Part shown: one piece after another, positions 3,537 to 20,238 of the stretch | How positions within the stretch are numbered: position 1 is the stretch's first letter | Layout of the letters: the number at the start of each line of letters is the position of its first letter | Source: a virus | IMG/VR virus record: IMGVR_UViG_3300050821_004070 | Span: 1 to 22,850 of that record | DNA length: 22,850 bases | Direction: 5' to 3' (one strand) | Notes under the pieces: model-generated | The model's database searches: none | Seen by the model: the letters and a program-made list of their open reading frames with translations, nothing else | Told to the model about the DNA's origin: nothing | Translations under genes and position numbers: made by a program

Positions 3537-3551
3537 TGCCATGCTTACGGG
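3537..3551 (+). promoter_or_regulatory. Extended -10-like element, leaderless spacing
   Basis: TGC followed by CATGCT (3540-3545), then exactly 6 nt before the ATG at 3552. The A at hexamer position 2 and T at position 6 match the two most conserved -10 bases. The 6-nt gap puts the predicted transcription start on the first base of the start codon. No clear -35 is seen. Its weight comes from the same pattern recurring before three other plus-strand genes. Confidence 0.45.
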
Positions 3552-3764
3552 ATGAGATTCCGGAGCGGCGGCCGTCGCGGGAAGAGGCCGGTCCGGGCGC
3601 ACAGCTCCGGCGGCGCGACCCACAACAAGAGCACCGTGCCGGGAGAATTGCAGGTCACTATCTGGGGGACGGTGGACAAGGAGCCGGACCGGGAGGTCGC
3701 CCTAGTCCTCGGCGAGGACGGCGTGAAGATGCTGAAAGCCGCCCTTGAGCGGTTCGGTCTCTAG
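3552..3764 (+). CDS. Small plus-strand moron-like protein (70 aa)
   Basis: A 70-aa protein with a basic N-terminus (RFRSGGRRGKRPVRAH) and a more conventional C-terminal half: LQVTIWGTVDKEPDREVALV, then GEDGVKMLKAALERFGL, which reads as two beta strands and a helix. No family was recognised. It runs opposite to the structural genes and converges on the endolysin gene; the two TAG stops overlap (3762-3764 on plus, 3761-3763 on minus). There is no convincing ribosome-binding site; an extended -10-like element 6 nt upstream suggests a leaderless mRNA. No terminator follows, so transcription may continue antisense to the endolysin. This frame is preferred over the overlapping Arg/Pro-rich frame because its composition is protein-like. 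Confidence 0.62.
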   Translation: MRFRSGGRRGKRPVRAHSSGGATHNKSTVPGELQVTIWGTVDKEPDREVALVLGEDGVKMLKAALERFGL

Positions 3765-4540
3765 CCCGGCAGCCACAGCTTCAGGCCCGCAGGCATCGCC
3801 TTGCGCGGATCGGTGGTCCCCGCGAACACGCCGTTGAGGTAGGCGGCAATGTCCGGCGGGTAGACAGCGCCGGGCGAGTGCTCGGCAGTGAGCCGCAGGA
3901 TCGCGGAGACGTCGGTGTGCTGCTGCGCGGCCAGCGCGGCAAGGGGGAGCTGTCCGGCGGTGATCCACTGGCGGACGGCTGGCGGGGCCGCTGTTCCTCC
4001 CTGGCGGATCGACATGGCGAGGGCGATGATCTGGGGACGCTGGGCAGCGCGCACAGGCCCGGGGCACTGCAGGTGCCCGCCCCAGGCCTGCCCGCCGTCG
4101 CTATGCAGGATCAGGCCCTGCCCGTTCACGTCGTCGGTGATCTTCAGCGGGAAGCCGTCGAACGCGCTGCACGCCTCGAAGATCTGCGCGAACGTCGTGA
4201 TCTGCGCCGGGGTCAGCGGGACGGACGGGTGCGTGCCGTCCTCGTCCTCGATGCCCCGCCACGCCTCGTTGCCGCCCGCCTGGGACCACGCGGTGAGGCC
4301 CTTGCCGACCGGGACGTACTGGTGGCACGACCCGTCGGCGGCGATCGAGAAGAACGCCGAAACCTGATTGGCCTTGTTCATGAACGTCGCCACCGTGCCG
4401 GCCTCGAAGCCGTCCTCGGTGTGGAGCACGACGCCGCGGCCGGTCCCGAACCCGGTTCCGTGGTTCGGTGTCAGCAGGTGCGTGATCCGGATCGGCCCCT
4501 GGAGCCAGCCGTCCGGGTCGAAGTGGCGCTTCAGGCTCAT
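3761..4540 (-). CDS. Endolysin, N-acetylmuramoyl-L-alanine amidase (Amidase_2-like)
   Basis: A 259-aa protein. The N-terminal domain (about residues 15-180) has Amidase_2/PGRP landmarks: GVVLHTEDG with H40, a QVSAFFSIAADGSCHQYV strand pair (59-76), LTAWSQAGGNE, and LILHSDGGQAWGGHLQCPGP with H146 and C159 as candidate zinc ligands (H156 nearby). This family cuts the bond between muramic acid and the stem peptide. The C-terminal segment (about 195-259, LAALAAQQHTDVSAILRLTAEHS ending LKLWLPG) resembles a LysM-like wall-binding tail. The ATG at 4540 follows AGGGGAC and overlaps the upstream stop (ATGA), so it is translationally coupled to the preceding small membrane protein. No signal peptide is present, so export should depend on a holin. 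Confidence 0.9.
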   Translation of the reverse strand: MSLKRHFDPDGWLQGPIRITHLLTPNHGTGFGTGRGVVLHTEDGFEAGTVATFMNKANQVSAFFSIAADGSCHQYVPVGKGLTAWSQAGGNEAWRGIEDEDGTHPSVPLTPAQITTFAQIFEACSAFDGFPLKITDDVNGQGLILHSDGGQAWGGHLQCPGPVRAAQRPQIIALAMSIRQGGTAAPPAVRQWITAGQLPLAALAAQQHTDVSAILRLTAEHSPGAVYPPDIAAYLNGVFAGTTDPRKAMPAGLKLWLPG

Positions 4541-4866
4541 CGCGTCCCCTGATTCCGTTGGTCGATGCGGGCGATGTGGCGCCGGGCCGGTGCCCGGCTG
4601 CCCGGATGCCGGGGATGGTGGCGCCGGCAAAGGCGGTAGGTCACGCCTGACGCCTCGTCGGTCAGGTCGTGATGGCCCAGCCGGAAGCACCAGCGGGTGT
4701 GGCAGTTGTGCTTGCGGTAGACGGCGACCAGGCCGCCGACCAGCGTCACCTCGCCGAGGTCGGACGCGATACCGCCCCAGAAGGCGCCGTCCGGCGCGAC
4801 CCCGGGCTCGTTCAGGCTCCCCGTGTGGTAGGCGAGCCAGTGCTGGAAGACGTGCCACCAGGGCAT
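4537..4866 (-). CDS. Small membrane protein with Cys/His knuckle, lysis cassette
   Basis: A 109-aa protein starting MPWWHVFQHWLAYHTGS. One hydrophobic segment (about residues 28-52, FWGGIASDLGEVTLVGGLVAVY) is followed by a Cys/His pattern: HNCHTRWC...GHH...YRLCRRHHP, which could bind a metal. The tail is basic and Pro/Arg-rich. The gene lies directly upstream of the endolysin, sharing an ATGA overlap, and its ATG at 4866 has AGGAG 5 nt upstream, just after the previous stop. Comparable small proteins beside lysins are familiar from actinophages but have no established role that I can name. A lysis accessory or membrane-anchored regulator is inferred from position only. Confidence 0.75.
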   Translation of the reverse strand: MPWWHVFQHWLAYHTGSLNEPGVAPDGAFWGGIASDLGEVTLVGGLVAVYRKHNCHTRWCFRLGHHDLTDEASGVTYRLCRRHHPRHPGSRAPARRHIARIDQRNQGTR

Positions 4867-4877
4867 GTGCGCTCCTG

Positions 4878-5045
4878 TCAGCCCGGCGGCCTGCGCCACA
4901 GCGGCCAGAACAGGTGCGCGGCCACCGCGGCAAGCCCCAGGATGACCAGGGACCTCCAGTCGAACCACACGGGCAGCCCGCCGGTACCGGTGCCGCGCGC
5001 GAACCACGCGAGGATGAACAGGACCAGGGCGATTACGGCGAACAT
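4878..5045 (-). CDS. 55-aa two-TM protein, candidate holin
   Basis: Starts MFAVIALVLFILAWFARG, giving a first hydrophobic segment at residues 1-15, then a short Gly-rich turn, then SLVILGLAAVAAHLFWPLW (about 33-51), and a basic RRPPG end. Two TM segments in 55 residues with a charged tail is the form of a small class II-type holin. An AAGGGA motif lies upstream of the ATG at 5045. It sits between two other membrane-protein genes and two genes upstream of the endolysin. Holin identity is inferred; neighbouring membrane proteins are alternatives. Confidence 0.68.
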   Translation of the reverse strand: MFAVIALVLFILAWFARGTGTGGLPVWFDWRSLVILGLAAVAAHLFWPLWRRPPG

Positions 5046-5064
5046 GGGATCACGTCCCTTCCGA

Positions 5065-5490
5065 TCACGGTGCCTTCTCGTCGCTGGCGGCCTGGGCCTT
5101 GTGCCGCCTGCCGGGCAGGCCCCGTACCGCGCGCCACGCACCGCGCAGGAGATGCCCCGCGAACTGGCGGGGAGTCAGCCCGATCCCTGCCGCCTGCTCC
5201 CTGATCACGAACCAGACGCGGCCCCACGTGGCGATGCCGATCAGGGCGATGGAGGCGACGGTGAACCAGGCGAAGCTCAGGCTCTCGAAGGAGAACCCGA
5301 ACAGCCTGTGCAGCACCGGGGGGGTCAGCGCCAGCGCCAGTCCCGAGTCCAGGGTGATGAGCATCTTGCCGATGTCCGTCCGGTACCCGCGCGCCAGCGC
5401 GATGTAGACGACCAGGAACGCGGCCGACGCGGACCAGGCGAAGAACACCACGTCACCGCCGAGATCGGCGAGGAGCTGCGCCTGGGTCAT
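5065..5490 (-). CDS. Three-TM phage membrane protein, lysis region
   Basis: A 141-aa protein with three likely membrane segments: VVFFAWSASAAFLVVYIAL (about 14-32), MLITLDSGLALALTPPVL (about 43-60) and FAWFTVASIALIGIATW (about 73-89). A basic cytoplasmic tail follows (RRHKAQAASDEKAP at the end). The arrangement of an RGYRTDIGK stretch between TM1 and TM2 is familiar from actinophage membrane proteins. The ATG at 5490 overlaps the previous stop (ATGA) and follows GGGGGGAAG. It is an alternative holin or antiholin candidate; sequence alone does not decide. Confidence 0.72.
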   Translation of the reverse strand: MTQAQLLADLGGDVVFFAWSASAAFLVVYIALARGYRTDIGKMLITLDSGLALALTPPVLHRLFGFSFESLSFAWFTVASIALIGIATWGRVWFVIREQAAGIGLTPRQFAGHLLRGAWRAVRGLPGRRHKAQAASDEKAP

Positions 5491-5732
5491 TGCTTCCCCC
5501 CGCCGTGCTGCACGCTGTCAAGGATCATGTCGGCCAGGTGGTTCCGTTCCCGCATGGCGCGGAGCTCCGAGATGATCGTGCGTTTCTCGTGTGCGGCCTG
5601 CGCGTCGGCGCCAGCCCGGACCTGGGTTGCGGAGGCGAGCCGCTCGCTTGCCTCCGCCCCGGCCGATATCGCCTGGGTGACGGCCCGTTCCGCGTCACCC
5701 GTGCGAGGCTCGCGTTTCCTAAGCAGCCTCAT
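5487..5732 (-). CDS. Small helical protein with RERNHLA motif, lysis cassette
   Basis: An 81-aa protein beginning MRLLRKREPRTGDAERAV, then Ala/Glu-rich helix, then LRAMRERNHLADMILDSV near the C-terminus. The RERNHxA motif recalls a short actinophage protein family often found beside holin-like genes; I know no biochemical function for it. No membrane segment is present, and a short coiled coil or helical hairpin is likely. The ATG at 5732 follows GGAGG. The gene overlaps the previous one by 14 nt and the next by an ATGA, so it is tightly coupled to both. Confidence 0.72.
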   Translation of the reverse strand: MRLLRKREPRTGDAERAVTQAISAGAEASERLASATQVRAGADAQAAHEKRTIISELRAMRERNHLADMILDSVQHGGGKQ

Positions 5733-6033
5733 GGGTCCTCCGCCGGAGGTCTTCGAGCAGCTCGCGGGCCAGCTTCGCGGTCTCCACTGCGGCGTCGGCC
5801 CGCTCGGTCTGGGCGATGTTCGCGGCCCGCAGCTCATCGCCGGCCTTGCGCTCCGTCTCCCGCGCTGCCCGCTCGGCCTCGTAGGCGGATTTCCAGTCGT
5901 CGGCTTCCTTCTCGATCCGCTGCACTTCCTGCCGGGTGGCCAGGATGCCGGAGAGGATGAGGATGACGATGATCGCGGTGCCTGCGCCCGCCGAGGACAG
6001 GATGGCGGTGATGATGCCCGAGTCAACCGGCAT
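5719..6033 (-). CDS. N-terminal TM plus coiled-coil protein, lysis cassette
   Basis: A 104-aa protein. Residues about 7-30 (IITAILSSAGAGTAIIVILILSGI) form one membrane segment. From about residue 33 onward there is a long charged helix, rich in Glu/Arg/Ala (QEVQRIEKEADDWKSAYEAE and on), ending ELLEDLRRRTHEAA. One TM helix with an extended coiled coil is the form of many actinophage holin-like proteins and also resembles an i-spanin, though Gram-positive hosts do not need spanins. The ATG at 6033 follows AGGGGGGCGC. It is the first clear membrane gene of the lysis cassette. Confidence 0.75.
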   Translation of the reverse strand: MPVDSGIITAILSSAGAGTAIIVILILSGILATRQEVQRIEKEADDWKSAYEAERAARETERKAGDELRAANIAQTERADAAVETAKLARELLEDLRRRTHEAA

Positions 6034-6138
6034 GCGCCCCCCTGGCTGCGTCGGCCGGCCCGGGGCCGGTCAGGACCAGTACCCTCCGGGCGGGTTCGGG
6101 CACCTGCCCCCTGGGGACGCTCGCGGGACGGGCCGGAG
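6034..6138. other. Short spacer before the lysis cassette
   Basis: This 105-nt stretch has no convincing gene. It contains a GC-only inverted repeat, CCGGCC/GGCCGG (6055-6060 with 6064-6069), with a 3-nt loop and no U-tract. Codons after the TGA at 6139-6141 stay open in frame for 22 codons to a second TGA at 6070 but have no start codon. Confidence 0.5.
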
Positions 6139-6330
6139 TCAGAGCGGCGTGAGCTGCGCCGGCCGGAACGTCGCCGGCGGCCGGCCGTCCAGCGCGACGG
6201 TGATCCGCGCGTTCGCCCCGGTGCCCTGCCGGGCCCGGATAGTCCCCTTGCGGTGCGGCGCGGCGGCCTCCCGGACCCGCCGGCAGGGCCGCCACTGCTG
6301 CTGGAATACCTGCGCCGCCGCGGCCACCGG
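6139..6330 (-). CDS. Small basic protein (63 aa) after the minor tail gene
   Basis: A short frame opened by GTG at 6330, with GGAG 9 nt upstream inside the last codons of the large tail gene. The product is basic: QVFQQQWRPCRRVREAAAPH, then GTIRARQGTGANARITVALD ending PATFRPAQLTPL. The C-terminal half reads like two beta strands (ARITVALDGR, ATFRPAQL). The start codon overlaps the upstream stop region closely, which favours a real coupled gene. No family is recognised, and the short length makes this the least certain gene of the tail-to-lysis junction. Confidence 0.45.
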   Translation of the reverse strand, partial: PVAAAAQVFQQQWRPCRRVREAAAPHRKGTIRARQGTGANARITVALDGRPPATFRPAQLTPL

Positions 6331-6332
6331 GC

Positions 6333-9300
6333 CTAACTCCAATACGTGGTCGGGAGCGGGTCCAGGACCAGCACGAGGCGGGCTTCGACCTTGGACCCGT
6401 TCGCGCCGAAGCTGACGCTGCGGGAGATCTGGGAGACCCGGTAGTTCCCCGTCGTCGCGGGCTGCCCGAGCGGCGCGTCGTAGATCTGGGCGATGTCTCC
6501 GGGGTTCATCCCGGCGACCATCGCCCACGCGGCCGGGTAGGACGCGGCGTCGATCGCGACGACGGACGCACGGCGCTGCAACGCCGCGAAGTTGGCCAGG
6601 TACCAGTCGGCCTGCGCCTGCATCTTCGTCTGGTCTTGCAGGTAGGAGGTGACGGCCTTGGGGCGGGCGCCGAACTGGGTCTGGGCGGTGTTCGCGGCGG
6701 CCGCGTTGGCGGGGGTGAGGCCGGCGAGGCTGGCGCCGTCCGGGGAGTACGGGGTGACGGTGATCGCGTCCCAGATCCGCTGCGGGTCCGACGACCATTC
6801 GATGCTGCCGTCGAACGGCACCATGCCGGCGAGCGTGTTCATCCCGATCCGCCAGATCGCCTGGTCGGCGGCCAGGCGGGCCCGGCTGCGGTAGCAGAGG
6901 GTGCCGTTGTTGTCCACGAACAGCAGCCCGTTATCGGAGTCGACGAGGTTTTGCAGGTTCGCGCCGGTCTGCTGCCCGCCGACGTCCAGCGCGGCCTGGA
7001 CGAGCAGGCCCGCGGACGAGTCGATGGCCCGGTTCGGCCGGGTGATCCTCCCGTACCCGAGGCACCGTTCGATCCGCTGGGCCACCGTGTCGCCAAGGCT
7101 GCTGGCTGCGGCCGGCGGGGATGCGTTGGTACCGGCGGCGGTCTGGCAGACGCCGGCACCTGACGCCCCGGACCCGTAGCCCTGCGTGAACCAGTCCCCC
7201 GGCCCGCACACGGTGGCAGCGTTCTTTTCGGCGCCCAGCTGACTGGCGGTGAACACGCTGAACGCGGGCGCCACGCCGGCCCAGCTGATCCAGGCGCCAT
7301 CACCTTGTCCGGCGGTGATGGTGAAGTCCTGGACGACGGCGGTGCTGTAGGCGGATGGCCCGGACGTGACGCTTCCCGCTATCGCAGTGACGACGGCGGA
7401 CATCACCGATGCGGCGTTGACCCCGTAGTTGTTGTTGACGAACGTGCCGTCCGGCCCGGGTCCGCTGAGGAACTGCGCGGAGACCGCTGTCGGTGCGGGC
7501 AGCAGCCCGAAGCCCGTGGCCGCGGCGCAGTAGTGGGCGAGGATCCGCCAGGCAGGCAGCTGGACCGGGTAGACGGCAAGGTGGGAGACGGACACGTTGG
7601 CGCCGTGCACCAGCCCCGTGCCTGCCGGCGAGCCGCCGTGGGTGCCGAGGTCTCCGTTGGCGATCAGCCACGTCCACGCGGAGGTCATTCCCGTCGCTGA
7701 TCCGGACACTTTCGCGGTTAGGCCGCCGTTGACGTACACCGTCCACGTGGTGGTGGTCAGTTCCACGGCGACGTGCATCCAGGACTCGGACCTCAGGTCC
7801 GACGACGTGTAAATTGCGTGGCTGGTGCCTGACGCGCCGTTGTAGGTGATGAGGTTCAGGTGGCCGCTGTTATCGAGTTGGAGGACGGCGACAGGGTTGC
7901 TTCCGGTTGCCAGCTCGATCAGGGTTAGCGGGCAGACCGGCTGCTCGGCCACTACGTCCGCGATTCCCCCGGGCGGGGTGCCGAGGTTAGCGGTGCCGAG
8001 GAATAGGTAGTCGAACCATCCCTCGACGGTGACCCCGTTCGCCAGGACGGGGAAGTTAGCGTCGTTGCAGGACAGGAACCAGCCGTAGCTGCCGGTGTTC
8101 CCGGCTTGCCCGGCGGCCTGCCATGCCGCTGATCCGGGGCTGGCAGTGACCGGGTTGCCTGTCGCGGCTGACTGCGGAGACGACTGGGGGTCACCGTACA
8201 TCCACCCCTGGCTAGCGGCGACCGCGTAGCCGGCGAGGTCGCCGGAAACGCCCAGCGAGGACCCGCCTACGGTGTACGAGAGCTGTGCGACGATGCCGTT
8301 CGGCGACTTGGTGATGTTCAGGACGTTCGGGTTTCCCGCCGCGGCGTTCCGCAGCGACGTAGGCAGTACCCCGGCGGTGAGCGGCTGGTCGTCGCACGGC
8401 CACCAGGCGTACGGGGCGTCCTGCTCGACTTCGCCGCGGTACGGGGTGGGCCCGGACCCGGCCACCACTCCCCACACGTCCGTCAGCGTGACCGGCACGT
8501 AGCCGCGGAGCGCCTTGTTGCGCTTCTCAGGGAACGCGAGCGCGTCCCGCTGCCAGGTGTACCACCGGTTGACGGCGGTCCCGTCGGTGAGGGTGCCGAG
8601 CGCCATCCGCAGCCGCAGCGGAGTGCCGGGCTGCAGGTCCGGGAAGAACGGCGACGCGGCGTTCGACGGCGACACGAGCCCGTCCGCGTTGTCGAGCTGG
8701 ACCGCCCCGGTGCCGGACTGGAGCTGCCCGAGCGCGTACGGCACCCCGGAGGAGTCCTGCCATCCCCAGAACCGTTTGTATCCCTGCCCCATGGAGGTCC
8801 AGGCGTTATCGCTGAGCGCCGTCCAGGTCATCTGGTCGTGGGGGGTTTCCATCCCCGCACCGAAGGCGGCTTCGAGGATCATCCGGCCGGCCCACGCCTG
8901 GTTCCCGCCGGCCGGGACCGGCGACGGCGCGGCGACCTGGACGCTGATGATCACGCCAGACAGGTCGGTGGCAGACCCGGCGGTGCCGTTCACCGACACA
9001 GACGAGGCATTCGAGAGCAGGTAGGCGGAGGTCAGCACCGCGTCACAGGTGTGATCGGTCCCGTTGCCCGCCGAGACGGCGGGCAGGGCCTGCCACGGCG
9101 ACCCGGGCGTGAACGCCTGCCCGGCCGCCGCGGAATCGCCGCAGACCGCGGCGATGACGAACGACGCGGCCGGCGGCGCGGACAGCGCCAGGTTCAGCGA
9201 CGTGGCCGCAGCCGCGTAGGCCACGTCGATACCCGTCACGACGTCCCACGGGCCGAGGCCGGCGACTTCCACCACCAGGCACGCCATGCCCGCCATCGCG

Positions 9301-10418: not shown

Positions 10419-10488
10419 CGCCACCCCCCCGGGGAGCCGTTACGCTGCCGCGCCGGGCGCGAGCGGCCATGCGGGGAGGGAAAGAAGG

Positions 10489-11127: not shown

Positions 11128-14100
11128 TCAGACGCCGCGGCCCTGAAGCTGCCAGCCGCCTTTCCAGTTGTTATTCGCGTTGGTCAGCGCGTGGTCCCGG
11201 ACGAGGGTCACCAGGTCGTGCTCGGTCATGACATGCCCGGAGACGTTGATGATGACGGTCGTCCCCCCGCCCCCGCCGCCGCCTCCGTGGCCGCCGTGCC
11301 TGACCGCGTTGACCATCCCCTGCGCCATCTGCCTCATCGCCGCCTCGACCGCGCCGAGCTGGGACCGGAGCCCGGCCGCGGCGGCTTTCCCCGCGTCGGC
11401 GCCGGCCTGGTACATCGCCGGCCCGCCGACGTCGCCGAGCTTCCCCGCGGACCCCTGGATCTGCTTCTCCAGCTGGTTGATCTGCCCGATGTTCCCCCGG
11501 CCGCCGCTGGTGAGGCCCTGGGCGATGGCGAGGCCCTGGTCCGGGCCGGCCTGGATGATCTGATCCAGCGACGTGGCGTTCAGGCCCATCTTCTTCAGCT
11601 GGGCGACCTGCTGGGCGAACATTTTCAGGTTCCCGGCCTGGGCCTGCATCCCGCCGACCAGCCCGGCCGCCGACTGCTGCGTGCCCGGGTCGTACGCCGT
11701 CGCGGTGGCCGCGTTCATGATGCTGGCGCCGGAGATCGCGTTCGTGGTGATCTGCCCGGCGTCGGTGATCTCGGTTTCGAGTTTCGCCCGCTGGTTCGCC
11801 AGCTGGGTCAGCTTGCCCTGGTCGGCTTTCAGCATCGCGGTCAGCCCCGTATCACCCTTGGGGACCTCGGCGAGCAGCTTCTTGACCGTGGCGTCGATCG
11901 AGGCGATGTCGGCGGCCTTGGCCGCGTTCTTGCCTAGCGCGGTAGCCGCGGCGTCGACGGCGGACTGGCCGCCTTCCAGGCCGAGGACCAGCCCGGCGGC
12001 GATGTCCTTGCCGGTCTTCATCGTCTTCCTGGACGGCGAGTGGGTCTGCGCGGCCTTGGCCATCGCGGCGGCGGCGGCGTTGGCGACGTCGGCGGCTGCG
12101 GCGACGACGGCGCCCTTGCCCGCCTCGATTCCCGCCGCGAGGCCGGCGGAGATCTGCGCCCCGTCCGTCCTCGCCGGGCCGATCGCGGCCCGGTACGCGG
12201 AGATGTCCGGCTTGGCCGCCTTCGCCGGCTTGGCGAGCGCCTGCTGGACGGACAGGGCCAGCGCCTTCGCGTCCGCCGCCGCCTTCCCCTTCGCCGTCGT
12301 CAGCGCGGAAATGTCCGGCGGTGCCATCTTGACCGGCTTCCCCATCGCCTGAGCGATCGAGTTGGTGAAGCCCGCGCCGACCGCCGGCTGCCTCGGGGCC
12401 GCGGGGGCTGAGCGGCCTCCGACTCCGACGAAATGCAGCGCGTTGTCGATCGCCCCGCCGACCTGCTGCCCGATGTGAGACGTCAGCCAGCCCTCGAACC
12501 CGCCGAGGATCTCGGGGTGCAACTGCTGCGCCGGGCCCGGTCGTCCCGACGCCTGCTGGAGCGCCTGGCTGTACTTGCCGGACTGGGAGCCCTTCGGGGC
12601 GATCGAGTCGCCGATACTCCTGATGGCCGCGCCGATGGCGACGCCGAGGCCGGCCCAGTTCGCCGCGCTGAGCAGCCCCGAAGGACTGCCGCCTGCGGGC
12701 ACGCCCGGTTTCCCGCCTGGCTTGCCGCCATCGGCGCCGACCATGGTGTCCGCGGCCCGCTGCATCGCCGCCGCAGCGTCGACCATCGTGTCGCCGGCCC
12801 TCTGCATCCCGGCGGACGCGCCGCTCCCGATGTTCGCGAGCTTGTCCAGGCCCGGGATGTGGAGCACCTCGGCGATCTTCCCGGTGAACCGCAATCCCGC
12901 CTGGGCGGTCTGGAACGCCTCCTTGATGCCGGAGGCCAGCTTGTTCCCGGCGAACAGGGCGGCGAGGCCGCCCGCGCCGAGCGCGATGTCTTTCCAGGCC
13001 CCCTTGGAGCCGTTCAGGTCCGTGAGGATCTTGTCCGCGAACCCGGCCGCCTTGGTGAACGCGGGCAGCAGCGCCGTGCCGAAGTTCACCTCCGCCGCCT
13101 GGAACCCGGCGGTCAGCTCTTTCCACTTCTGCTGCGGCGAGGCCTGGGTCTTCTGCCACGCCTGGTTGAAATTGTTCGCGTCCTTGGTGATCGCGGGGAA
13201 CTTGGACCGGAACCGCTCCATGTTCTCCAGCAGCAGCGCCAGCCCGGCTCCGGCCTTCTTCCCGAACAGCTCAGTGATGACCGAGCCCTCATTTTTGGCG
13301 GTGATTCCGTTCGCCTTGAACTTGCTGTCGAGCAGGTCCAGGGTGGACAGCAGCCCGTGCGCCTGCATGTTCTTGCCGAGCTCACCCGAGGTCAGGCCGA
13401 GCTTGGCAAGTTCCTTAGTAGCGGTCGGAGACTGGACCGCGAGAGACTGCACCGCCATCCGCAACTCGGTCCCGGCCTTGGCGCCCCGGATGTTCAGGTC
13501 ACCGTAAGTCGCCAGCCCGGCGCCGACGTCCTTCAGCGTCAGCCCGTAGCCCTTCACGACCGGCACCACGCCGGTCCCCAGCGCCTCGGCGAGCTGCTGC
13601 ATGTTCATCTCGCCCGAACCCACCGTGGAGTTCAGCGCGCCCATCGCCTTGGAGTAGTCCTTCGCCCCCGGGATCCCCGACGCGATGACCGACGTCAGCG
13701 CCGTGGTCGTGTCCACGAGGTTCGAGTGGCCCACCGCCGCGCCCTCGGCGGCGATCTTCACCGCCTTGAGCATCTGGACAGGCGTCCCGCCGATCGACTC
13801 CATGTTCGACGCGACGTGATAGGCCGACTCGGCGACGTCGGACAGCTTCTGCCCCGTCTGCGTCGAGATCTCCAGCACGCCCTGGGACATCTGCTTGACC
13901 TTGGGCATCGACACGCCGGCCTGCGTGTTCAGCAGCAGCATCTGCGACTGGAACTTCATCGCCTTATCGATGCCGAAGGCAGCCGCCACCCCGGTGCCGA
14001 GCATGACGGTGCCCAGGCCCTTCCAGAACTTCCCGCCGGACGCCGCCGCCTCCGCCCCGGCCTTCCCCGCCCGGCCCCCCGCGACAGCCTGCTTGTCCAG

Positions 14101-14430
14101 GGCGGCGGCGGCCGCGTCAGCGGACGCGGCCAGCCGGTCCTCACCCGCCGCCGCCGTATCAGCCGACGCCCCGAGACTGTCGATCCCGCCGGTCGCGCTC
14201 CTGGCCGCCGTGCTCATGCGGCCCATCGCCGCCGCCGCCCGCTGCCCGGCCCGCTCGATCGCGTCCGCCGCCGCGCTCATCGACGCGGCCAGCTTGTCCG
14301 CCCCGCCGCCGAGGCTCCCCTTGCCGATCCGGGCCATCGCCTCAGCAGCCCGGTCAGCCGCAACAGCCAGGGCATCCAGCTCGCCGATCGCCGGGGCGGC
14401 GTCGATGGTGATCGTCTCGGAGATCGACAC
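11128..14430 (-). CDS. Tail tape measure protein (TP901-type)
   Basis: About 1100 aa. An Ala-rich helical N-terminus (residues about 10-125) precedes a TP901/PhageMin_Tail core (about 130-430) with FGIDKAMKFQSQMLLLNTQAG, LSDVAESAYHVASNMESIGG, MGALNSTVGSGEMNMQQLAE and LFGKKAGAGLALLLENMERF. Hydrophobic segments follow (DIALGAGGLAALFAGNK; AANWAGLGVAIGAAI). A repeated MQRAxDTMV motif occurs mid-protein, and a Gly-rich stretch precedes the conserved-looking end TTVIINVSGHVMTEHDLVTL. It sets tail length and is probably ejected with DNA; at roughly 1.5 angstrom per residue the tail would be about 165 nm. GTG at 14430, with GGGGGTGGG upstream, is preferred over TTG at 14451, which has no RBS. Confidence 0.92.
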   Translation of the reverse strand: MSISETITIDAAPAIGELDALAVAADRAAEAMARIGKGSLGGGADKLAASMSAAADAIERAGQRAAAAMGRMSTAARSATGGIDSLGASADTAAAGEDRLAASADAAAAALDKQAVAGGRAGKAGAEAAASGGKFWKGLGTVMLGTGVAAAFGIDKAMKFQSQMLLLNTQAGVSMPKVKQMSQGVLEISTQTGQKLSDVAESAYHVASNMESIGGTPVQMLKAVKIAAEGAAVGHSNLVDTTTALTSVIASGIPGAKDYSKAMGALNSTVGSGEMNMQQLAEALGTGVVPVVKGYGLTLKDVGAGLATYGDLNIRGAKAGTELRMAVQSLAVQSPTATKELAKLGLTSGELGKNMQAHGLLSTLDLLDSKFKANGITAKNEGSVITELFGKKAGAGLALLLENMERFRSKFPAITKDANNFNQAWQKTQASPQQKWKELTAGFQAAEVNFGTALLPAFTKAAGFADKILTDLNGSKGAWKDIALGAGGLAALFAGNKLASGIKEAFQTAQAGLRFTGKIAEVLHIPGLDKLANIGSGASAGMQRAGDTMVDAAAAMQRAADTMVGADGGKPGGKPGVPAGGSPSGLLSAANWAGLGVAIGAAIRSIGDSIAPKGSQSGKYSQALQQASGRPGPAQQLHPEILGGFEGWLTSHIGQQVGGAIDNALHFVGVGGRSAPAAPRQPAVGAGFTNSIAQAMGKPVKMAPPDISALTTAKGKAAADAKALALSVQQALAKPAKAAKPDISAYRAAIGPARTDGAQISAGLAAGIEAGKGAVVAAAADVANAAAAAMAKAAQTHSPSRKTMKTGKDIAAGLVLGLEGGQSAVDAAATALGKNAAKAADIASIDATVKKLLAEVPKGDTGLTAMLKADQGKLTQLANQRAKLETEITDAGQITTNAISGASIMNAATATAYDPGTQQSAAGLVGGMQAQAGNLKMFAQQVAQLKKMGLNATSLDQIIQAGPDQGLAIAQGLTSGGRGNIGQINQLEKQIQGSAGKLGDVGGPAMYQAGADAGKAAAAGLRSQLGAVEAAMRQMAQGMVNAVRHGGHGGGGGGGGTTVIINVSGHVMTEHDLVTLVRDHALTNANNNWKGGWQLQGRGV

Positions 14431-14458
14431 GAGCCCACCCCCGGCCGTCAACGGCTAC

Positions 14459-14479: not shown

Positions 14480-14485
14480 GCGTGG

Positions 14486-14899
14486 TCAGAGGTGCAGGAA
14501 CTCGGCGAGGGTGATCGCGCACATCGCCTGGATCAGCCCGGCCGCCTCGACCTCGGCCCGCTCCATGTAGTGACTGCCGGCCTGGGTGACCTGCTTGCCG
14601 AAGAACCCGACTGCCGGGGTGCCGAGCACCTTGGCCCGCTTGACCCGGATCGTTCCCCCGTCGTTGCGGAATTTGGCGTAGATCAGGTCGGAGCCGACCA
14701 CCGCCACGGCCACCGGCCCGCCCCCCGTGATGGAGAAGACACGCTCGGACGCGCGCAGCGCCCCCGAGCGGACCGGGGTCGTGACCTCGAGCGCGGCCAG
14801 CATCTCCTTGGCCGCCGCCCGCGCGCACTCCCCCGCCAGCCCGGCCTCAGCCCGGCCGGCGAGAGCCCTGACCTCGGCGGCGAACTCGGCCAGGTTCAC
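14486..14899 (-). CDS. HK97 gp10-like tail/head-tail joining protein
   Basis: A 137-aa protein. An N-terminal helix (LAEFAAEVRALAGRAEAGLA) precedes VTTPVRSGALRASERVFSI (about 40-58), the signature 'T.P..tG.L..S' helix-turn of HK97 gp10-type proteins. Then come VAVAVVGSDLIYAKFRNDGG with the conserved YA...N.GG-like strand, and a C-terminal helix. In HK97-like phages this family acts in neck or tail completion and is usually encoded before the tail terminator. Here it lies between the tail chaperones and the tape measure gene. GTG at 14899 follows GGAGGGTGAGCC, and its start lies 3 nt after the stop of the frameshifted chaperone. Confidence 0.7.
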   Translation of the reverse strand: MNLAEFAAEVRALAGRAEAGLAGECARAAAKEMLAALEVTTPVRSGALRASERVFSITGGGPVAVAVVGSDLIYAKFRNDGGTIRVKRAKVLGTPAVGFFGKQVTQAGSHYMERAEVEAAGLIQAMCAITLAEFLHL

Positions 14900-14902
14900 G
14901 GC

Positions 14903-15519
14903 TCACCCTCCGCGCTGCGCTTCCAGGTAGTCCAGGCCGGCCCGTACCGGCTCCAGCAGCCTCGCCACCGCCAGCGGCACATCCGAAGGACCGCGCGGGT
15001 GGTACCAGCCTTTGATGATCCCTACGGCGTGGCGGACGTTACCGCGGGAGGCGCCGGGAGGGGGCTCGGCGAACCGGCCTTGGAGGTGTCCGCAGAGCCA
15101 CCGCTGCCACTCGCCGGACCCGATTTTGGGGCCTCGTCTGCCTCGTCGTCCTCGGCGTCGATGAGGGCGTCCTGCACCGGCCCGGCCGCCTTCGCCAGCG
15201 CGTTGCACACCCGCACCGGCAACTGCCCCCGGTACTCGCGCTGCCACGGCAACCCGAGCTGGTCGAACGACCAGCCGGCGATTACCTTCGCCAGGAGCCA
15301 GTCCTGCATCACCCGGTTCCCCGCCCGCCCCAGCTGCCGCGGCGGGGCAGGCAGCATGACCGCCGGGTTAGCCGGGTCCGGCTGCGGCGCAGGCTGCGGT
15401 ATCTCCTGAATCAGCTCGTCGTACTTGTCCAGGAACGCGTCCTGGTCAGCCCCGGTGAGTTCGTCCGGGTCGAGCAGGTCGGCCCACTGGCCTCCCGGCA
15501 GCGGGTGACGGGTCGTCAT
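14903..15519 (-). CDS. Tail assembly chaperone, -1 frameshift fusion (gpGT-like)
   Basis: The 0-frame product is read for 132 codons (15519-15124), the ribosome slips back one base on C CCA AAA, and the -1 frame is read to the TGA at 14903-14905, adding 73 residues for a total of 205 aa. The extension begins IGSGEWQRWLCGHLQGRF and continues with a protein-like IIKGWYHPRG...LARLLEPV-type sequence. The -1 frame has no plausible start of its own at this point; its 5' part is an Arg/Gly-rich shadow. In lambda and relatives the longer form guides tape measure and tube assembly and is absent from the virion. Gene order (tube, chaperones, tape measure) fits. Confidence 0.85.
15022..15519 (-). CDS. 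Tail assembly chaperone, short form (gpG-like)
   Basis: A 165-aa protein starting MTTRHPLPGGQWADLLDPDE. It is acidic, with a helical middle (RVMQDWLLAKVIAGWSFDQL, about 69-88; VCNALAKAAGPVQDALID, about 104-121), an acidic DAEDDEADEAPK segment where the frameshift occurs, and a low-complexity Ser/Gly/Pro/Ala tail typical of sequence read out of its ancestral frame. The ATG at 15519 lies 32 nt after the tube-B stop, with AAAAGGG upstream at longer than ideal spacing. It is the more abundant partner of the frameshifted form in known systems. Confidence 0.85.
   Translation of the reverse strand: MTTRHPLPGGQWADLLDPDELTGADQDAFLDKYDELIQEIPQPAPQPDPANPAVMLPAPPRQLGRAGNRVMQDWLLAKVIAGWSFDQLGLPWQREYRGQLPVRVCNALAKAAGPVQDALIDAEDDEADEAPKSGPASGSGGSADTSKAGSPSPLPAPPAVTSATP
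15124..15130 (-). promoter_or_regulatory. -1 programmed ribosomal frameshift slippery heptamer
   Basis: On the minus strand the zero-frame codons are GCC CCA AAA TCG, giving C CCA AAA, a canonical X XXY YYZ site. A -1 slip gives CCC AAA ATC. Four bases downstream, GTCCG...CGGAC (15119-15115 with 15092-15088) can form an outer stem with an inner GAG/CTC pairing, a candidate stimulatory hairpin. Confidence 0.85.
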
Positions 15520-15551
15520 AGCGCGCGTGCCCTTTTCTGTAAGTTGCGTGA

Positions 15552-16802
15552 CTAGTATGAGGGAATTGCATTCACGAGAATTGCCTGCATCGGTGAATAG
15601 CCGCCGCTATTCCCGGCGTTAGTGGTGTTGGCCACCAACTCTCCTGTGGTTTTAAATCCCCACAGGCTTTTCATTGCAGACAATGGCGCGTCTTTGTGTC
15701 CGGCCAATTGCGCATTAATGGTTATCGAGACGGTGTTCGGGCTGGACAGCCCGTTGGTGAGGACGAATGAGAGGGTCGGCTGGGTGTTGTTCAGCACGTA
15801 GTTCAGGGCGCTCTCATCCGAGACCGCGTCGTAGGCGATGTCGAAGTCCACGGTCAGCGGGCCGGCGGCGATCACGTACGGGTTCTGGGACCCGTCGGCG
15901 GTGGTCACGATGTCGAGTTCGCGTTTGATCGTGAACGCGCATTCGGAGACGTTGTAGACCTGGGCGGCGGCGAGGCTGATGTTGGCCTGCCAGGTCGGGA
16001 ACGCCGGGACGGTGGTGAATGACGGGACGGTGTCGGCGGCGGGGAAGTTCCGCAGGTACGAGGAGAATTTCCCGTCCCAGGTGAACCAGCCGTCTTTGGT
16101 GGCGGTCAGCTTCAGGTCGGTGAACCGGCTGTACGAGTACTGGTCGGAGTTGTGGTTCGCGGCGGTGGCGACCAGGTTGCGGTGGAGGAACGTGTAGGTC
16201 GGCGGCTGCGCGGAGGTGTTGCCGGTGGACGAGTTCGGGTTGATACCGGAGAAGGTGTGCGTGTAGTTCGCCGTGGTGTTGGTGATGGCGACGCCGGTCA
16301 GGTGGGAGAAGCGGAGCGGGGTCGCGGTCTTCAGGGTGATCACGTTCGACGCGACCGAGAGAACCTGGACGATCTCGGCGAGAGAACCGATGTCGACCTG
16401 GACCCACTGGTTCGCGGCGAACCCGGTGCCTGAGGTGACGGTGATCGACGTGGCGCCGGCGGAGACTCCGCCGTTGAGCGTCGAGTTCGGCGCGGCGGCG
16501 GTCCCGGTGGTGGTGTAGTCGCCGAGCATGCTGAACAGGATGTGGCCGAGGGTGTCGCCGTACGCGGGGCTGGCGGGGACGGTGACCTCGGCCCAGTAGT
16601 TCGCCTGGACCAGCGAGTACGTTTTGACGTTGCTGCCGCGCAGGTTGTCGTCTTGCAGCCAGTTGACGTTCTGGCGGGTCTGCAGCGGCCCGCACGGAAT
16701 CCCCGTGTAACCGGCCGGGGGCGTGTCGATGACCAGTTCACGGCCAGCAAGCAGCGCGCTCTCGAAGACGGGGTAGATCAGGCTGGGGATCGTGAGCGGC
16801 AC
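15552..16802 (-). CDS. Major tail tube-like protein B
   Basis: A 416-aa protein. The layout is a tube-type N-terminus (VNWLQDDNLRGSN, ANYWAEVTVPASPAYGDTLG), an inserted beta module (about 110-178, GATSITVTSGTGFAANQWVQ then ITLKTATPLRFSH), a strand region FTDLKLTATKDGWFTWDGKF (227-246), and CAFTIKRELDIVTTADGSQNPY (288-309) followed by IAAGPLTVDFDI. The REL..DGSQ.PY..AGP block and the general layout match tube-like protein A (18851-17688), so the two are paralogs. GTG at 16802 follows AAGGAGG. Position directly before the chaperone pair makes it the better candidate for the main tube protein. The last 54 codons are clearly less GC-rich than the rest. Confidence 0.78.
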   Translation of the reverse strand: MPLTIPSLIYPVFESALLAGRELVIDTPPAGYTGIPCGPLQTRQNVNWLQDDNLRGSNVKTYSLVQANYWAEVTVPASPAYGDTLGHILFSMLGDYTTTGTAAAPNSTLNGGVSAGATSITVTSGTGFAANQWVQVDIGSLAEIVQVLSVASNVITLKTATPLRFSHLTGVAITNTTANYTHTFSGINPNSSTGNTSAQPPTYTFLHRNLVATAANHNSDQYSYSRFTDLKLTATKDGWFTWDGKFSSYLRNFPAADTVPSFTTVPAFPTWQANISLAAAQVYNVSECAFTIKRELDIVTTADGSQNPYVIAAGPLTVDFDIAYDAVSDESALNYVLNNTQPTLSFVLTNGLSSPNTVSITINAQLAGHKDAPLSAMKSLWGFKTTGELVANTTNAGNSGGYSPMQAILVNAIPSY

Positions 16803-16848
16803 GGCTCGGCCCTCCTTGCTCGGGTACTGCTAGCTGGACAGGGAGGGC

Positions 16849-17202
16849 TCAGGCGCCCTGATCGGTGGTGACGGCGAAAGCGGGGCCGGCCGGCGGGGCG
16901 ACGACGGCGGGCGGTGCGGGCACCGGGCCGGCCGGGGCGTCGTTGCTGACGGGAGGTGACCAGGTGCCATCCGCCGGGTGTTCTACGGCGGTCATCCCCT
17001 CACCGGTGCCGGGCTGCTCGGCCGCCTCGTCGCTGCTAGCGGCCTCGCCGGTTCTGGGCGGGATCACCGGCACCCACCACGAATCCGGCGCGTCGTCGAA
17101 CATGCGGATGTCGCCGGGCTGCACGGTGCCGAGCGGCCTGCCGTTCACGTCCCTGGTCCCGGAGTAGACGCGCTCGGGTCCGGTGAGCTCGTACGACGGC
17201 AA
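16849..17202 (-). CDS. Small Pro/Ala-rich structural-region protein
   Basis: A 117-aa protein. The first 50 residues are ordered (MPSYELTGPERVYSGTRDVN, VQPGDIRMFDDAPDSWWVPV), with a VQPGD turn; the remainder is a low-complexity Glu/Pro/Ala linker ending FAVTTDQGA. The layout resembles the 97-aa head protein at 21574-21281: a short '...GD...D..P' domain followed by a disordered tail. The start is TTG at 17202, supported by GGAGG 6 nt upstream. It lies between the two tube paralogs. Function is unknown; a virion accessory or assembly factor is possible. Confidence 0.7.
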   Translation of the reverse strand: MPSYELTGPERVYSGTRDVNGRPLGTVQPGDIRMFDDAPDSWWVPVIPPRTGEAASSDEAAEQPGTGEGMTAVEHPADGTWSPPVSNDAPAGPVPAPPAVVAPPAGPAFAVTTDQGA

Positions 17203-17215
17203 GACGGCCTCCAGG

Positions 17216-17231
17216 TGGCACGATGGGGCAG
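17216..17231 (+). promoter_or_regulatory. Extended -10-like element before plus-strand gene pair
   Basis: TGG followed by CACGAT (17219-17224), then 7 nt before the ATG at 17232. It shares the A2 and T6 positions and TGn extension with the other plus-strand sites. It overlaps the alternative ATG at 17223, which argues for the ATG at 17232 as the real start. The GGGGCAG between could also serve as a ribosome-binding site. Confidence 0.4.
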
Positions 17232-17435
17232 ATGAGCAACGAGGACCCGGCGCGCGGGTACGTACTGGTACTGGTCCCAGCCGATCAGGTGGGCGCGCTG
17301 ACCAGAGGGCAGTCGGCCAAGTGGATGGCCCGGCTGACGGCCAACACGACGGTCGAGATAGTCGGCGACGTGGGCGAGGACCGGCGGCTGCGGATGTCCC
17401 GGGAGATGTACGAGCAGGTCGAGGTCATTGAGTGA
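17232..17435 (+). CDS. Small plus-strand moron-like protein (67 aa)
   Basis: Starts MSNEDPARGYVLVLVPADQV. It has a hydrophobic strand (YVLVLVPA), then GQSAKWMARLTANTTVEIVG and DRRLRMSREMYEQVEVIE. It reads as a compact alpha/beta protein of unknown family. The ATG at 17232 is preferred to 17223, which would fall inside the -10-like element. It is divergent from the Pro-rich protein gene at 17202, with about 29 nt between starts, and its stop overlaps the GTG of the next gene (GTGA), so the two form a coupled pair. Confidence 0.65.
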   Translation: MSNEDPARGYVLVLVPADQVGALTRGQSAKWMARLTANTTVEIVGDVGEDRRLRMSREMYEQVEVIE

Positions 17436-17716
17436 GCAGTAGCGAGGACGAGCCCGGCTTGCAGTTGCGGTACGCGGAACGGCCGGTGATGCGGGGGACG
17501 CGGCTGGTGATCTGGCGTCCGGCGGCCTGTACGGCGTTCGCCCCGGAGCCGTTCAAGGCCGGGCAGGGCTTCACGATCGATGTGACCGGCGACGACGGCG
17601 AGGGCAGGTGGCGCGCGACGCTTCAGTCATGGCTGGAGGGCCCGGAGGGCGTCCTGCTTACTCTGGAGGTCGAGGGTCGCTATCCAGCTAGTACGCCTGC
17701 TGCCAGAAGTTCATGA
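17432..17716 (+). CDS. Plus-strand moron-like protein, coupled second gene (94 aa)
   Basis: GTG at 17432 overlaps the previous stop by GTGA. The product begins MSSSEDEPGLQLRYAERPVM and continues with TRLVIWRPAACTAFAPEPFK, GFTIDVTGDDGEGRWRATLQ and a final strand GVLLTLEVEGRYPAS. It looks beta-rich and soluble; no family is recognised. The last 29 nt overlap the 3' end of tube-like gene A on the other strand; the residues encoded there (STPAARSS) look like tail-end extension. No terminator follows, so the transcript should be antisense to the tube gene's 3' end. Confidence 0.62.
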   Translation: MSSSEDEPGLQLRYAERPVMRGTRLVIWRPAACTAFAPEPFKAGQGFTIDVTGDDGEGRWRATLQSWLEGPEGVLLTLEVEGRYPASTPAARSS

Positions 17717-18851
17717 GCTGGACCTGGGCGACCCCGGAGTGCGGCGAGTCCGCCGGGTTCGCGATCCCGGACAGGCTGAAGTTCGCGGTCACGTACTGCT
17801 CTTCCAGCGACACCGCGCCTGCCGTCCACCCGGACAGCGACAGCGTGACGGCGATGGAAGATCCGCCCTGGAGTGCCGGCTGCGCGAGGGTCCACACGGC
17901 AGGCTCCTGGATGGCCCGCCGGTACAGGTCCAGGTCCGCCGGGGTGTCGTAGATGGCTTTGTAAGCCCCGGATGCGCGCATCGGCCCGGCGACGATCAGG
18001 TAGGGGGCCTGGGAGCCGTCACAGGCCAGCACGACGTTCAGCTCACGGGTCAGGGCCAGGTCCAGGGACACGCCCCGGGTCGAGGTGCCGCCTGCGGTGG
18101 TGATGCCCCACGACCATCCGGCGAACGGCTGCGCGTGGCTCTGCGCCTCGGTGAACGTGGCCTCGGCCTGCGGCGGCCACCCGGACCAGTCGGAGACGAG
18201 CGTCGCGTACCCGCCGGCGCCCACCTGGAGCCTCGTGCGGGCCAGGCAGCAGCCGGGCCACCCGGTCTGGTCCACCCCGTCATCGGTGGTCAGGCTGTAG
18301 GACGGCCAGCCGGACGGCGCCGGCCGGTTCTGCCTGAACACGTGGGTCGCCTGGGACTGGGCAGGGTCGCCGCTGCTGTGCGCGAACCGGAGGGCCGTAG
18401 TGACAGGCACCGTGAACGGGCCTGACCCTGACGGCGTTCCGGCCTGGGCGTACTCCAGGGCGGTGCCCGTGCCGAGCTGGAGCACCGATCCGGCTGGAGG
18501 GGCGGCAGCAAGGGAGACGGACAGGGTGCCCGGCGAAGTCGCGGCGGCGAACGTGGTCACGGTGCCCGCGGTGAAGATGTCCGGGCCGATCATTCCCCTG
18601 AACAGCCAGCCGGCCCAGTCGGGGTAGGCCTCGGTGGTGATCGTCCAGTCCGACCAGTAGTGGCCTTGCTGGATGTCCTGGGTGTCGGTGTCGGTGGCGC
18701 GGATGTTGCGGTCGTACAGCTGGGTGATCGCGCTGCGATAGCGGGTCCCCGGCATGAACGGGACCGTGAAGGCGGGGACCTCGTAGGTGGCCGTGGACGG
18801 CTCGGCGGCGATGCCGAGCTTGGCGTCGCTGGAGAGAACGGAGTAGGTCAC
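17688..18851 (-). CDS. Major tail tube-like protein A (paralog of B)
   Basis: A 387-aa protein starting MTYSVLSSDAKLGIAAEPST. It has a tube-like N-terminal region (VPFMPGTRYRSAIT, HYWSDWTITTEAYPDWAGWL), a beta insert at about 105-165 (GTLSVSLAAAPPAGSVLQLG, then TALRFAHSSGD), a strand region RLQVGAGGYATLVSDWSGW (207-225) and LALTRELNVVLACDGSQAPY (265-284) followed by LIVAGPM. The insert position, the REL..DGSQ.PY..AGP block and the order of segments match tube-like protein B. GTG at 18851 follows GGAGGGCGCG. Together with B it could form the tube and a specialised ring, or one may be a baseplate or terminator-proximal adaptor. Confidence 0.72.
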   Translation of the reverse strand: MTYSVLSSDAKLGIAAEPSTATYEVPAFTVPFMPGTRYRSAITQLYDRNIRATDTDTQDIQQGHYWSDWTITTEAYPDWAGWLFRGMIGPDIFTAGTVTTFAAATSPGTLSVSLAAAPPAGSVLQLGTGTALEYAQAGTPSGSGPFTVPVTTALRFAHSSGDPAQSQATHVFRQNRPAPSGWPSYSLTTDDGVDQTGWPGCCLARTRLQVGAGGYATLVSDWSGWPPQAEATFTEAQSHAQPFAGWSWGITTAGGTSTRGVSLDLALTRELNVVLACDGSQAPYLIVAGPMRASGAYKAIYDTPADLDLYRRAIQEPAVWTLAQPALQGGSSIAVTLSLSGWTAGAVSLEEQYVTANFSLSGIANPADSPHSGVAQVQLMNFWQQAY

Positions 18852-18864
18852 CGCGCCCTCCGCC

Positions 18865-18879
18865 TGCCATCATGGGCGC
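18865..18879 (+). promoter_or_regulatory. Extended -10-like element, leaderless spacing
   Basis: TGC followed by CATCAT (18868-18873), then exactly 6 nt before GTG at 18880. Same layout as the site at 3537-3551 (TGC CATGCT, 6 nt). It lies in the 28-nt gap between divergent starts; on the minus strand the same bases carry the GGAGG-type site for tube-like gene A. Confidence 0.45.
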
Positions 18880-19125
18880 GTGAAGGCCGCCGACCTCGAT
18901 GACGACGTGTTCCTTGCCGCCGTGCGGGCAACCGGCCCGATGGGATCAGCCGTGGCGTGGCGGTCGCGGTGGGCGGTTCACGAGACGCTGCAAGCCCGGC
19001 TCGGCATTGAGATCCCGGAGAAGCTCTTTATGGCCAAGGCCCGGAAGCTGATGCTGAGGAAGAAACTCTTCGGCTGCCCGTGCGGCTGCCGTGGTGACTA
19101 CTACCTGCCGGGCGAGCCGGGCTGA
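18880..19125 (+). CDS. Plus-strand moron-like protein with CPCGCRGD end (81 aa)
   Basis: Starts at GTG 18880: MKAADLDDDVFLAAVRATGP. A mostly helical body (WRSRWAVHETLQARLGIEIP, KLFMAKARKLMLRKKLFG) is followed by GCPCGCRGDYYLPGEPG. The helix-helix-strand rhythm, with a basic K/R-rich helix before a short Cys-rich hairpin, suggests a small winged-helix-like DNA-binding protein; this is inference. The three closely spaced Cys could bind metal. There is no obvious ribosome-binding site. It ends 3 nt before the minus-strand gene 19638-19129 stops, so the genes converge. Confidence 0.7.
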   Translation: MKAADLDDDVFLAAVRATGPMGSAVAWRSRWAVHETLQARLGIEIPEKLFMAKARKLMLRKKLFGCPCGCRGDYYLPGEPG

Positions 19126-19128
19126 TCG

Positions 19129-19638
19129 CTAGGCGTTGACCTCGAAGTCGTCGATGTAGTACACGGCCGCCGCGCGCAGTTCTTTCGCTTCCCTGATCGT
19201 CGCCGCTGCGGGCTCGTACTGCACGTCCCACCCCGGCTGGCCCTTGACCTCGGCCGCGCTCAGGAACCTGCCCCCGTGGGTCTTGTCCCCCAGAGGCCCG
19301 GTGACCCGCTGCCGCAGCAGCTCGATCGCGTCGTCGAACGCCTGCTGTTCCCCCGCCGCGATCGACGACGAGCCGGGGCTGATGACCCGCACCGGCCAGT
19401 GAAGTTCCAGCCGCATCGGGTAGCGGGGCCGGATCCGCTGGTTCGCCACCCGGGACTGCTCTGCTCTGCCGCGCATGACGTAGATGGCTGTCGCGTTGGT
19501 GCGGGTCTGGGCACCCTGGATGTAGGCGGCGATGACACCCCAGGGGCCTCCCGCGCTGGCCGGGAGGAACGGGAGGCTGTCACCCGAACTCGTGCTCAAC
19601 CAGTCAGCCTCGCGCTGTACGGCGTCCGCACTCGACAT
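19129..19638 (-). CDS. Probable tail terminator or neck protein
   Basis: A 169-aa protein starting MSSADAVQREADWLSTSSGD. Features are GPWGVIAAYIQGAQTRTNATAIYVMRG-type strands, a central LELHWPVRVISPGSSSIAAG region, a helix EQQAFDDAIELLRQRVTGPL, and a final pair IREAKELRAAAVYYIDDFEV. The alpha/beta pattern with helix-then-strand C-terminus, and position between connector and tube genes, fit a tail terminator (gpU/HK97 gp10-neighbour type), but no signature motif is decisive. The ATG at 19638 has GGTGGTGAC upstream. It starts 30 nt from a divergent plus-strand gene. Confidence 0.6.
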   Translation of the reverse strand: MSSADAVQREADWLSTSSGDSLPFLPASAGGPWGVIAAYIQGAQTRTNATAIYVMRGRAEQSRVANQRIRPRYPMRLELHWPVRVISPGSSSIAAGEQQAFDDAIELLRQRVTGPLGDKTHGGRFLSAAEVKGQPGWDVQYEPAAATIREAKELRAAAVYYIDDFEVNA

Positions 19639-19668
19639 TCGTCACCACCGGTCGTGGATAATCGGCGC
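19632..19668 (+). promoter_or_regulatory. Promoter-like element, -35 TCGACA and -10 GATAAT
   Basis: GATAAT (19657-19662) lies exactly 6 nt before the ATG at 19669. TCGACA (5 of 6 to TTGACA) lies 19 nt farther upstream and overlaps the first codons of the divergent minus-strand gene. This is the best promoter match among the plus-strand genes; a TG lies directly before the hexamer. Confidence 0.5.
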
Positions 19669-20238
19669 ATGACAAACCACCCGCAACGCAAGCGTGACGA
19701 CAATGCACCCGCGAGCGGACGTGCCATGCCCGGCAGGCCGCCAGCACCCGCGCAGACGCCCAACGGCGATCATCCGCCCCGGCCGGATGCCGCCAAGCTC
19801 ATCGGGCAGGCCGTCGCCGAGTCGCTCGGCCAGCACCTTCCGCAGATGCTGTTCCAGGCCCTCGCCGCCGCACTCCAGCAGGTCACCCAGCAGCACTTCT
19901 GCGCTACCTGCATCATCAGCCGGGTCATGTGGGAGAACTCGCACCGCGCCGACATGGAGAAGGCGCTGGCCGCAGCGGCACAGGCAGCAGGCGCCGAACC
20001 GGGCAGCCCGCAGGCCGGCCAGCAGGACCTGACCCCGTTCCTCCCGCCCGCGCTCCGGCCCGGTGAACGGAACGGGATACCGGCCGTCGGCCAGGCCGTC
20101 ACCACGAGCCAGGGAACCGATCTGTGCGCGGCGCACCTCGCGCAGGCCGCGGGCATCCAGCCGGGCCGGTCGCAGCTGCTCGTGGCCACGGCCACGATGA
20201 ACCCGGCGATGCTCGGGCAGCTCGCCGGGACCAGGTGA
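19669..20238 (+). CDS. Plus-strand moron-like protein with CxxC, 189 aa
   Basis: A 189-aa protein starting MTNHPQRKRDDNAPASGRAM. A Pro-rich N-terminus (about 25-40) is followed by helix AAKLIGQAVAESLGQHLPQM and FQALAAALQQVTQQHFCATC (the CATC at about 80-83), then an Ala-rich helix and GTDLCAAHLAQAAGI. CxxC together with the later C..H could bind metal. The region 5' of 19669 in the same frame is antisense to gene 19638-19129 and is excluded. No ribosome-binding site is evident. The stop overlaps the next GTG start (GTGA), so it forms a pair with a second Cys-rich gene. Function is unknown. Confidence 0.7.
   Translation: MTNHPQRKRDDNAPASGRAMPGRPPAPAQTPNGDHPPRPDAAKLIGQAVAESLGQHLPQMLFQALAAALQQVTQQHFCATCIISRVMWENSHRADMEKALAAAAQAAGAEPGSPQAGQQDLTPFLPPALRPGERNGIPAVGQAVTTSQGTDLCAAHLAQAAGIQPGRSQLLVATATMNPAMLGQLAGTR

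Follow-up and report, generated by a model that had tools for sequence, protein, structure and literature searches.

Candidate leaderless promoters with an extended −10-like element upstream of antisense gene cassettes in the late operon of an uncultivated soil phage

Introduction

TANNNT-associated leaderless genes of Actinobacteria and antisense morons of prophages are both established (PMC3160421, PMC3898074, PMC7067206). A TANNNT motif about 12 bp before the start characterizes leaderless genes in Actinobacteria (PMC3160421), and promoters of M. tuberculosis have TANNNT without a −35 element, their activity being raised by TGN (PMC3898074). Antisense prophage morons may carry their own promoter (e.g., STMMW_20121, PMC7067206).

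The locus described here resembles the actinobacterial leaderless genes in that a hexamer with A at position 2 and T at position 6 lies 6–7 nt before the start, with no Shine–Dalgarno (SD) sequence and no −35 element, and only before the first gene of a unit (PMC3160421, PMC3898074). It differs in that the units are phage cassettes within a late operon, and in that the first base of the hexamer is often C or G, mostly with TGn. The position of TGn directly before the hexamer and the lack of a −35 element are also found in the mycobacterial extended −10 promoters, but there TGN precedes TANNNT (PMC3898074), whereas in this phage clade it precedes [C/G]ANNNT. Like the STMMW_20121-type morons, the cassettes are small non-structural genes located between late genes on the opposite strand, and they vary among relatives (PMC7067206). 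Unlike these morons, their predicted promoter is leaderless and back to back with the late SD sequence, and no terminator was found. In the literature searched, we did not find this combination, the back-to-back packing, the swapping of genes at a site or the TGn-linked C/G-first −10.

Organization of the phage fragment

The DNA analysed (hereafter the window) corresponds to an entire IMG/VR record (22,850 bases, 70% G+C) and is a fragment of an uncultivated phage. It belongs to a soil phage group, itself uncultivated, in which small extra genes lie reversed between the genes for virus particles. The late operon is on the minus strand and includes the genes for the tape measure (11128-14451), a tail protein (15552-16802) and an amidase (3761-4540). 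It is interrupted by four plus-strand islands, which start at 3552 (p1), 17232 (p2, followed by p3 at 17432), 18880 (p4) and 19669 (p5, followed by p6 at 20235). In both pairs the second gene overlaps the preceding stop by a GTGA, which is read directly in the sequence.

p1, 3552..3764, plus strand: 70 aa, no family; its end overlaps the amidase gene (3761-4540, minus strand) at that gene's 3' end
p2, 17232..17435, plus strand: 67 aa, first of a two-gene group, no family
p3, 17432..17716, plus strand: 94 aa, begins in a GTGA that overlaps the p2 stop; contig L010 has a homologue at this site
p4, 18880..19125, plus strand: 81 aa, phrog_5135 family
p5, 19669..20238, plus strand: accessory protein of 189 aa in which CxxC and CxxH are invariant and the start, MTN.P, is conserved
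p6, 20235..20561, plus strand: GTGA overlap with the p5 stop; end uncertain (frame open to 21227); its relative is a separate cassette in L008

No homologues of p1 and p2 were found in IMG/VR. The CxxC and CxxH pairs of p5 may form a zinc site, and the protein has a weak match to DUF2267, below the cut-off. The copy of p5 in record L014 has an in-frame stop.

The hosts of the group are probably actinobacteria. The sole pointer is that relatives of p4 occur in Streptomyces phages and plasmids; genome scans for p5 and for the tail protein gave no match. The relatives of p4 in Streptomyces phage Samy and in Streptomyces plasmids are not arranged as leaderless genes and have regulator or integrase genes as neighbours; that of Samy is SD-led and lies outside the late region. 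This suggests that p4 moved into the late region in the window.

Elements upstream of the plus-strand genes

The preliminary description reported a −10-like hexamer before the first gene of each island, and its coordinates, hexamers and spacings are exact to the base.

p1 element, 3537..3551, plus strand: TGC-CATGCT, hexamer 3540-3545, 6 nt to ATG 3552; this site is covered by the window only
p2 element, 17216..17231, plus strand: TGG-CACGAT, hexamer 17219-17224, 7 nt to ATG 17232; divergent late start at 17202, 29 nt off
p4 element, 18865..18879, plus strand: TGC-CATCAT, hexamer 18868-18873, 6 nt to GTG 18880; divergent late start at 18851, 28 nt off
p5 element, 19655..19668, plus strand: TG-GATAAT, with TG directly before the hexamer at 19657-19662, 6 nt to ATG 19669

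Positions 2 and 6 are A and T, respectively, in all four hexamers, and a TGn lies directly upstream of three of them, the fourth (p5) having a TG, as had been reported. The claim that three of the four genes have no credible ribosome-binding site also holds: the energies of the duplex with the anti-SD are +1.7, −5.2, −1.9 and −3.1 kcal/mol, p2 (17232) being a weak exception, while the late genes have clear SD sequences and typical values of −5 to −11 kcal/mol. A further in-frame ATG of p2, at 17223, lies within the hexamer.

An xAnnnT hexamer is found 6–7 nt before 5.9% of the 954 in-frame ATG/GTG codons in the window (ORFs of at least 50 aa), and only 0.6% of these codons also have a TG in the three bases preceding the hexamer. 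None of the 19 late-strand starts has the hexamer at this distance, and no spacing from 8 to 39 nt gives it in more than one of the four first genes. Four matches out of four would arise by chance with a probability of about 1e-5, a figure that is uncorrected for the freedom in choosing motif and spacing. Taken alone, the four elements of the window are thus suggestive, not decisive.

Conservation in related phages

The p5 protein is also encoded in several further records, which together with the window give six distinct upstream sequences. The homologues have 43–72% protein identity to that of the window, while the upstream DNA and positions 1, 4 and 5 of the hexamer vary.

Window: GATAAT, 6 nt
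L003: GATAAT, 7 nt
L013 (identical in L014): GATGAT, 7 nt
L011: GATACT, 7 nt
L010: CATGAT, 7 nt
L008 (identical in L007 and L009): CATAAT, 6 nt

Positions 2, 3 and 6 are invariant across the six sequences. The start of p5 was not chosen by means of the hexamer, since MTN.P is fixed by the protein alignment alone. The upstream DNA of L003 differs from that of the window, yet TCGTGGATAATCGG(G)CGCATGACAAA is kept. The conservation upstream of homologues on which the preliminary description had staked its proposal is therefore found, the element being kept in 6/6 distinct p5 homologues, which have a common ancestry.

Seven related IMG/VR contigs were compared for other antisense cassettes, and the doubtful ones (L011 7936, G006 15355 and G008 631) were left out. 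The hexamer occurs at 6–7 nt in about 20 of 20 cassettes whose first gene can be identified, new sites included, and no such cassette without the element was found in these contigs. In L008, L010, L011 and L012, the insertion sites of the window are either empty or occupied by unrelated genes.

p2 site: TAGGGT, 7 nt (L010 and L011); TAAGGT, 7 nt (L012); TACGGT, 7 nt (L008)
p4 site: unrelated genes at L008 8632 and L010 2438, in which the first in-frame ATG has TACCGT at 6 nt, with 28 nt to the late start, the same distance as in the window
L011 1606: TGA-GATCGT, 6 nt
L012 1694: TACGAT, 7 nt, followed by two genes with strong SD sequences
L008 12054: TGG-GATCAT, 6 nt, relative of p6
L008 16037: TACGCT, 6 nt, followed by a GTGA-coupled gene
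G003 9279: TGC-GACGAT, 6 nt, DUF6221 gene

The p2-site cases are weaker than the others, because the matching start was picked 9 nt inside an earlier in-frame GTG; the L008 gene at this site also has a fair SD sequence. G003 9279 was discovered by the hexamer scan itself and is not independent evidence.

The four matches of the window might have been picked by chance from a long list of candidate motifs, and the figure for the window, being uncorrected for that choice, leaves some room for this. The relatives refute it: all the new sites, which were unseen when the motif was proposed, match. We consider a chance origin hardly credible.

The spacing is equally constrained. Among 15 curated antisense first genes, xAnnnT lies at 6–7 nt in all 15, and in at most one at each of the larger spacings (8 to 39 nt); across the clade, the background is 6.4%. 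When every antisense ATG/GTG start (ORFs of at least 50 aa) within 70 nt of a late start was scanned, matches at 6–7 nt were obtained for 14 of the 42 starts with a real upstream gap, against 3 of the 35 without (p = 0.012), and two of these three are true cassettes behind miscalled gaps. No other spacing differs between the two classes of the scan. The late genes of the clade, which have strong SD sequences, show the element at 1 of 107 called starts, and the signal is absent from related phages that lack antisense genes.

On the late strand of L012, a Phd/YefM antitoxin gene (1754, plus strand) has TGG-TACATT at 7 nt and is itself apparently leaderless. The signal thus marks accessory genes rather than a strand. 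This gene and an antisense operon of three genes (654-1694, minus strand) stand back to back, and no toxin partner of the antitoxin was identified.

Contig L011 has no antisense gene at the p4 site (6209-6442). This stretch contains tRNA-like words (GGATTTGAACCGGC), and ARAGORN finds no tRNA in it.

Layout of the promoter region

Of 13 sites measured, 12 have the divergent late start 28–56 nt away from the element; at p1 the distance is 158 nt. Both strands are therefore constrained at most sites, and the hexamer could have been kept for another reason (as an operator, as a constraint on the region upstream of the late gene or as a translation enhancer), the genes being read through from upstream promoters. 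But the spacing stays at 6–7 nt relative to the antisense start codon and is not tied to the late start, and at 17 sites only A2 (17/17) and T6 (17/17) are invariant, as a −10 element requires, the other positions being variable. As for read-through, a plus-strand transcript from upstream would have to cross an entire antisense late gene, and the first genes mostly lack an SD sequence. Such explanations appear very improbable.

No terminator was found at the convergent end of p1, and the terminator-like matches near p6 are at about chance level. Transcripts of the cassettes would thus run into the late genes as antisense RNA. The distal genes of the cassettes are start–stop coupled or have their own SD sequence.

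First base of the hexamer

The preliminary description pointed to C or G as an unusual first base. This feature is real and recurs in relatives: the first base is C or G at 12 of 20 sites in the clade and T at the other 8, against none of four in the window. TGn lies directly before the hexamer at 8 of the 20 sites, and all 8 are C/G-first, compared to 4 of the 12 sites without TGn (p = 0.005, or 0.013 after removal of near-copies); p becomes 0.057 if the L012 antitoxin gene, which has TGn and is T-first, is included.

Three Streptomyces records (325 kb, plasmids and phage Samy) were used as a control. There the leaderless signal is plainly T-first, with 10 TAnnnT hexamers at 6–7 nt for 1.4 expected, while [C/G]AnnnT is not clearly enriched (31 for 22.9 expected) and TGn-[C/G]AnnnT occurs 3 times for 0.9 expected.

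This raises the question of whether these −10 elements are recognized by an alternative sigma factor, of the host or of the phage, with a preference for C or G in first place, the cassettes forming a regulon for special conditions. The prevalence of C/G-first sites, the T found at position 3 in 10 of 17 hexamers and the control would agree with this, and so would the lack of a common −35 element (TTGACA), for which the mean of the best matches is 2.9 of 6 positions, against 2.7 for random sequences. However, the clade also uses T-first TAnnnT at the same position, and even at the same site (TACCGT at p4, TAGGGT at p2), which fits a single housekeeping sigma factor with a compensating TGn. An alternative sigma factor is improbable in our opinion, if less so than read-through or another constraint on the hexamer.

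A −35 match of 5 of 6 positions is seen only for p5 of the window and for L011. TCGACA or TCAACA, located 19 nt upstream in p5 of the window, L003 and L011, was considered as a shared −35 and rejected, as there is no overall excess.

Proposed transcription and translation of the cassettes

The own-promoter, leaderless reading of the preliminary description is supported by the conservation at p5, by the match of all identifiable cassettes and by a late operon that is SD-led and lacks the signal. Position, conservation, absence elsewhere, weak SD pairing and coupling are properties of the sequence, from which we consider it highly probable that an extended −10 without −35, recognized by a housekeeping-type sigma factor, produces a leaderless mRNA for the first gene of each antisense cassette. 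The hexamers would be the −10 elements, extended by TGn in three of the four cases in the window. The predicted transcription start is the start codon, or lies within one base of it, and the downstream genes would be translated through start–stop coupling or from their own SD sequence. The cassettes would be morons, i.e., accessory genes, inserted backwards among SD-led late genes. The shortness of the promoter lets it share about 28–56 bp with the late ribosome site of the opposite strand.

In the C/G-first elements, the contact with TGn, together with the retained A(−11) and T(−7), may compensate for the first base. This idea agrees with the identity of the bases that flip out, namely A−11 and T−7 (PMC3753650). 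In fork probes with E. coli RNA polymerase, substitution of T(−12) strongly weakens binding (PMC3753650), so that C/G-first promoters may have low activity or depend on a different sigma factor. They make up a natural promoter set for testing TGn as a substitute for the first T of the −10 in actinobacteria.

By analogy with the antisense moron that has its own promoter (PMC7067206), expression of the cassettes would be independent of the late operon and occur outside late growth, perhaps in lysogeny; since the window is a fragment, a lysogen of this phage is an assumption. Tentatively, the late operon might be a dock for exchangeable antisense cassettes, with a minimal leaderless promoter at every insertion point, its distance to the late start nearly constant and its −10 tolerating C or G first in the presence of TGn. 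If true, this possible arrangement would represent a class of compact and modular promoters that has not been described among actinobacterial leaderless genes. The layout of the elements suggests how phages can accommodate additional genes among closely packed structural genes at the cost of only a few dozen bases of regulatory DNA. The sequence rule itself (an antisense start with xAnnnT at 6–7 nt, in most cases in a back-to-back arrangement with a late start) leads to accessory genes that the gene caller missed, such as those at L008 8632 and L010 2438.

Other genes of the late region

Near the tail genes, the window has a gene for a DUF4038-type (GH140-like) protein (130-1755, minus strand) with a match of about 25% to Rhodococcus plasmid proteins. 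Another gene among the late genes (2431-3393, minus strand) encodes a cysteine-rich protein with no Pfam match, the C-terminal part of which appears HNH-like from its sequence. A similar cysteine-rich, multi-repeat gene is found in an antisense cassette of L008 (16240-17478).
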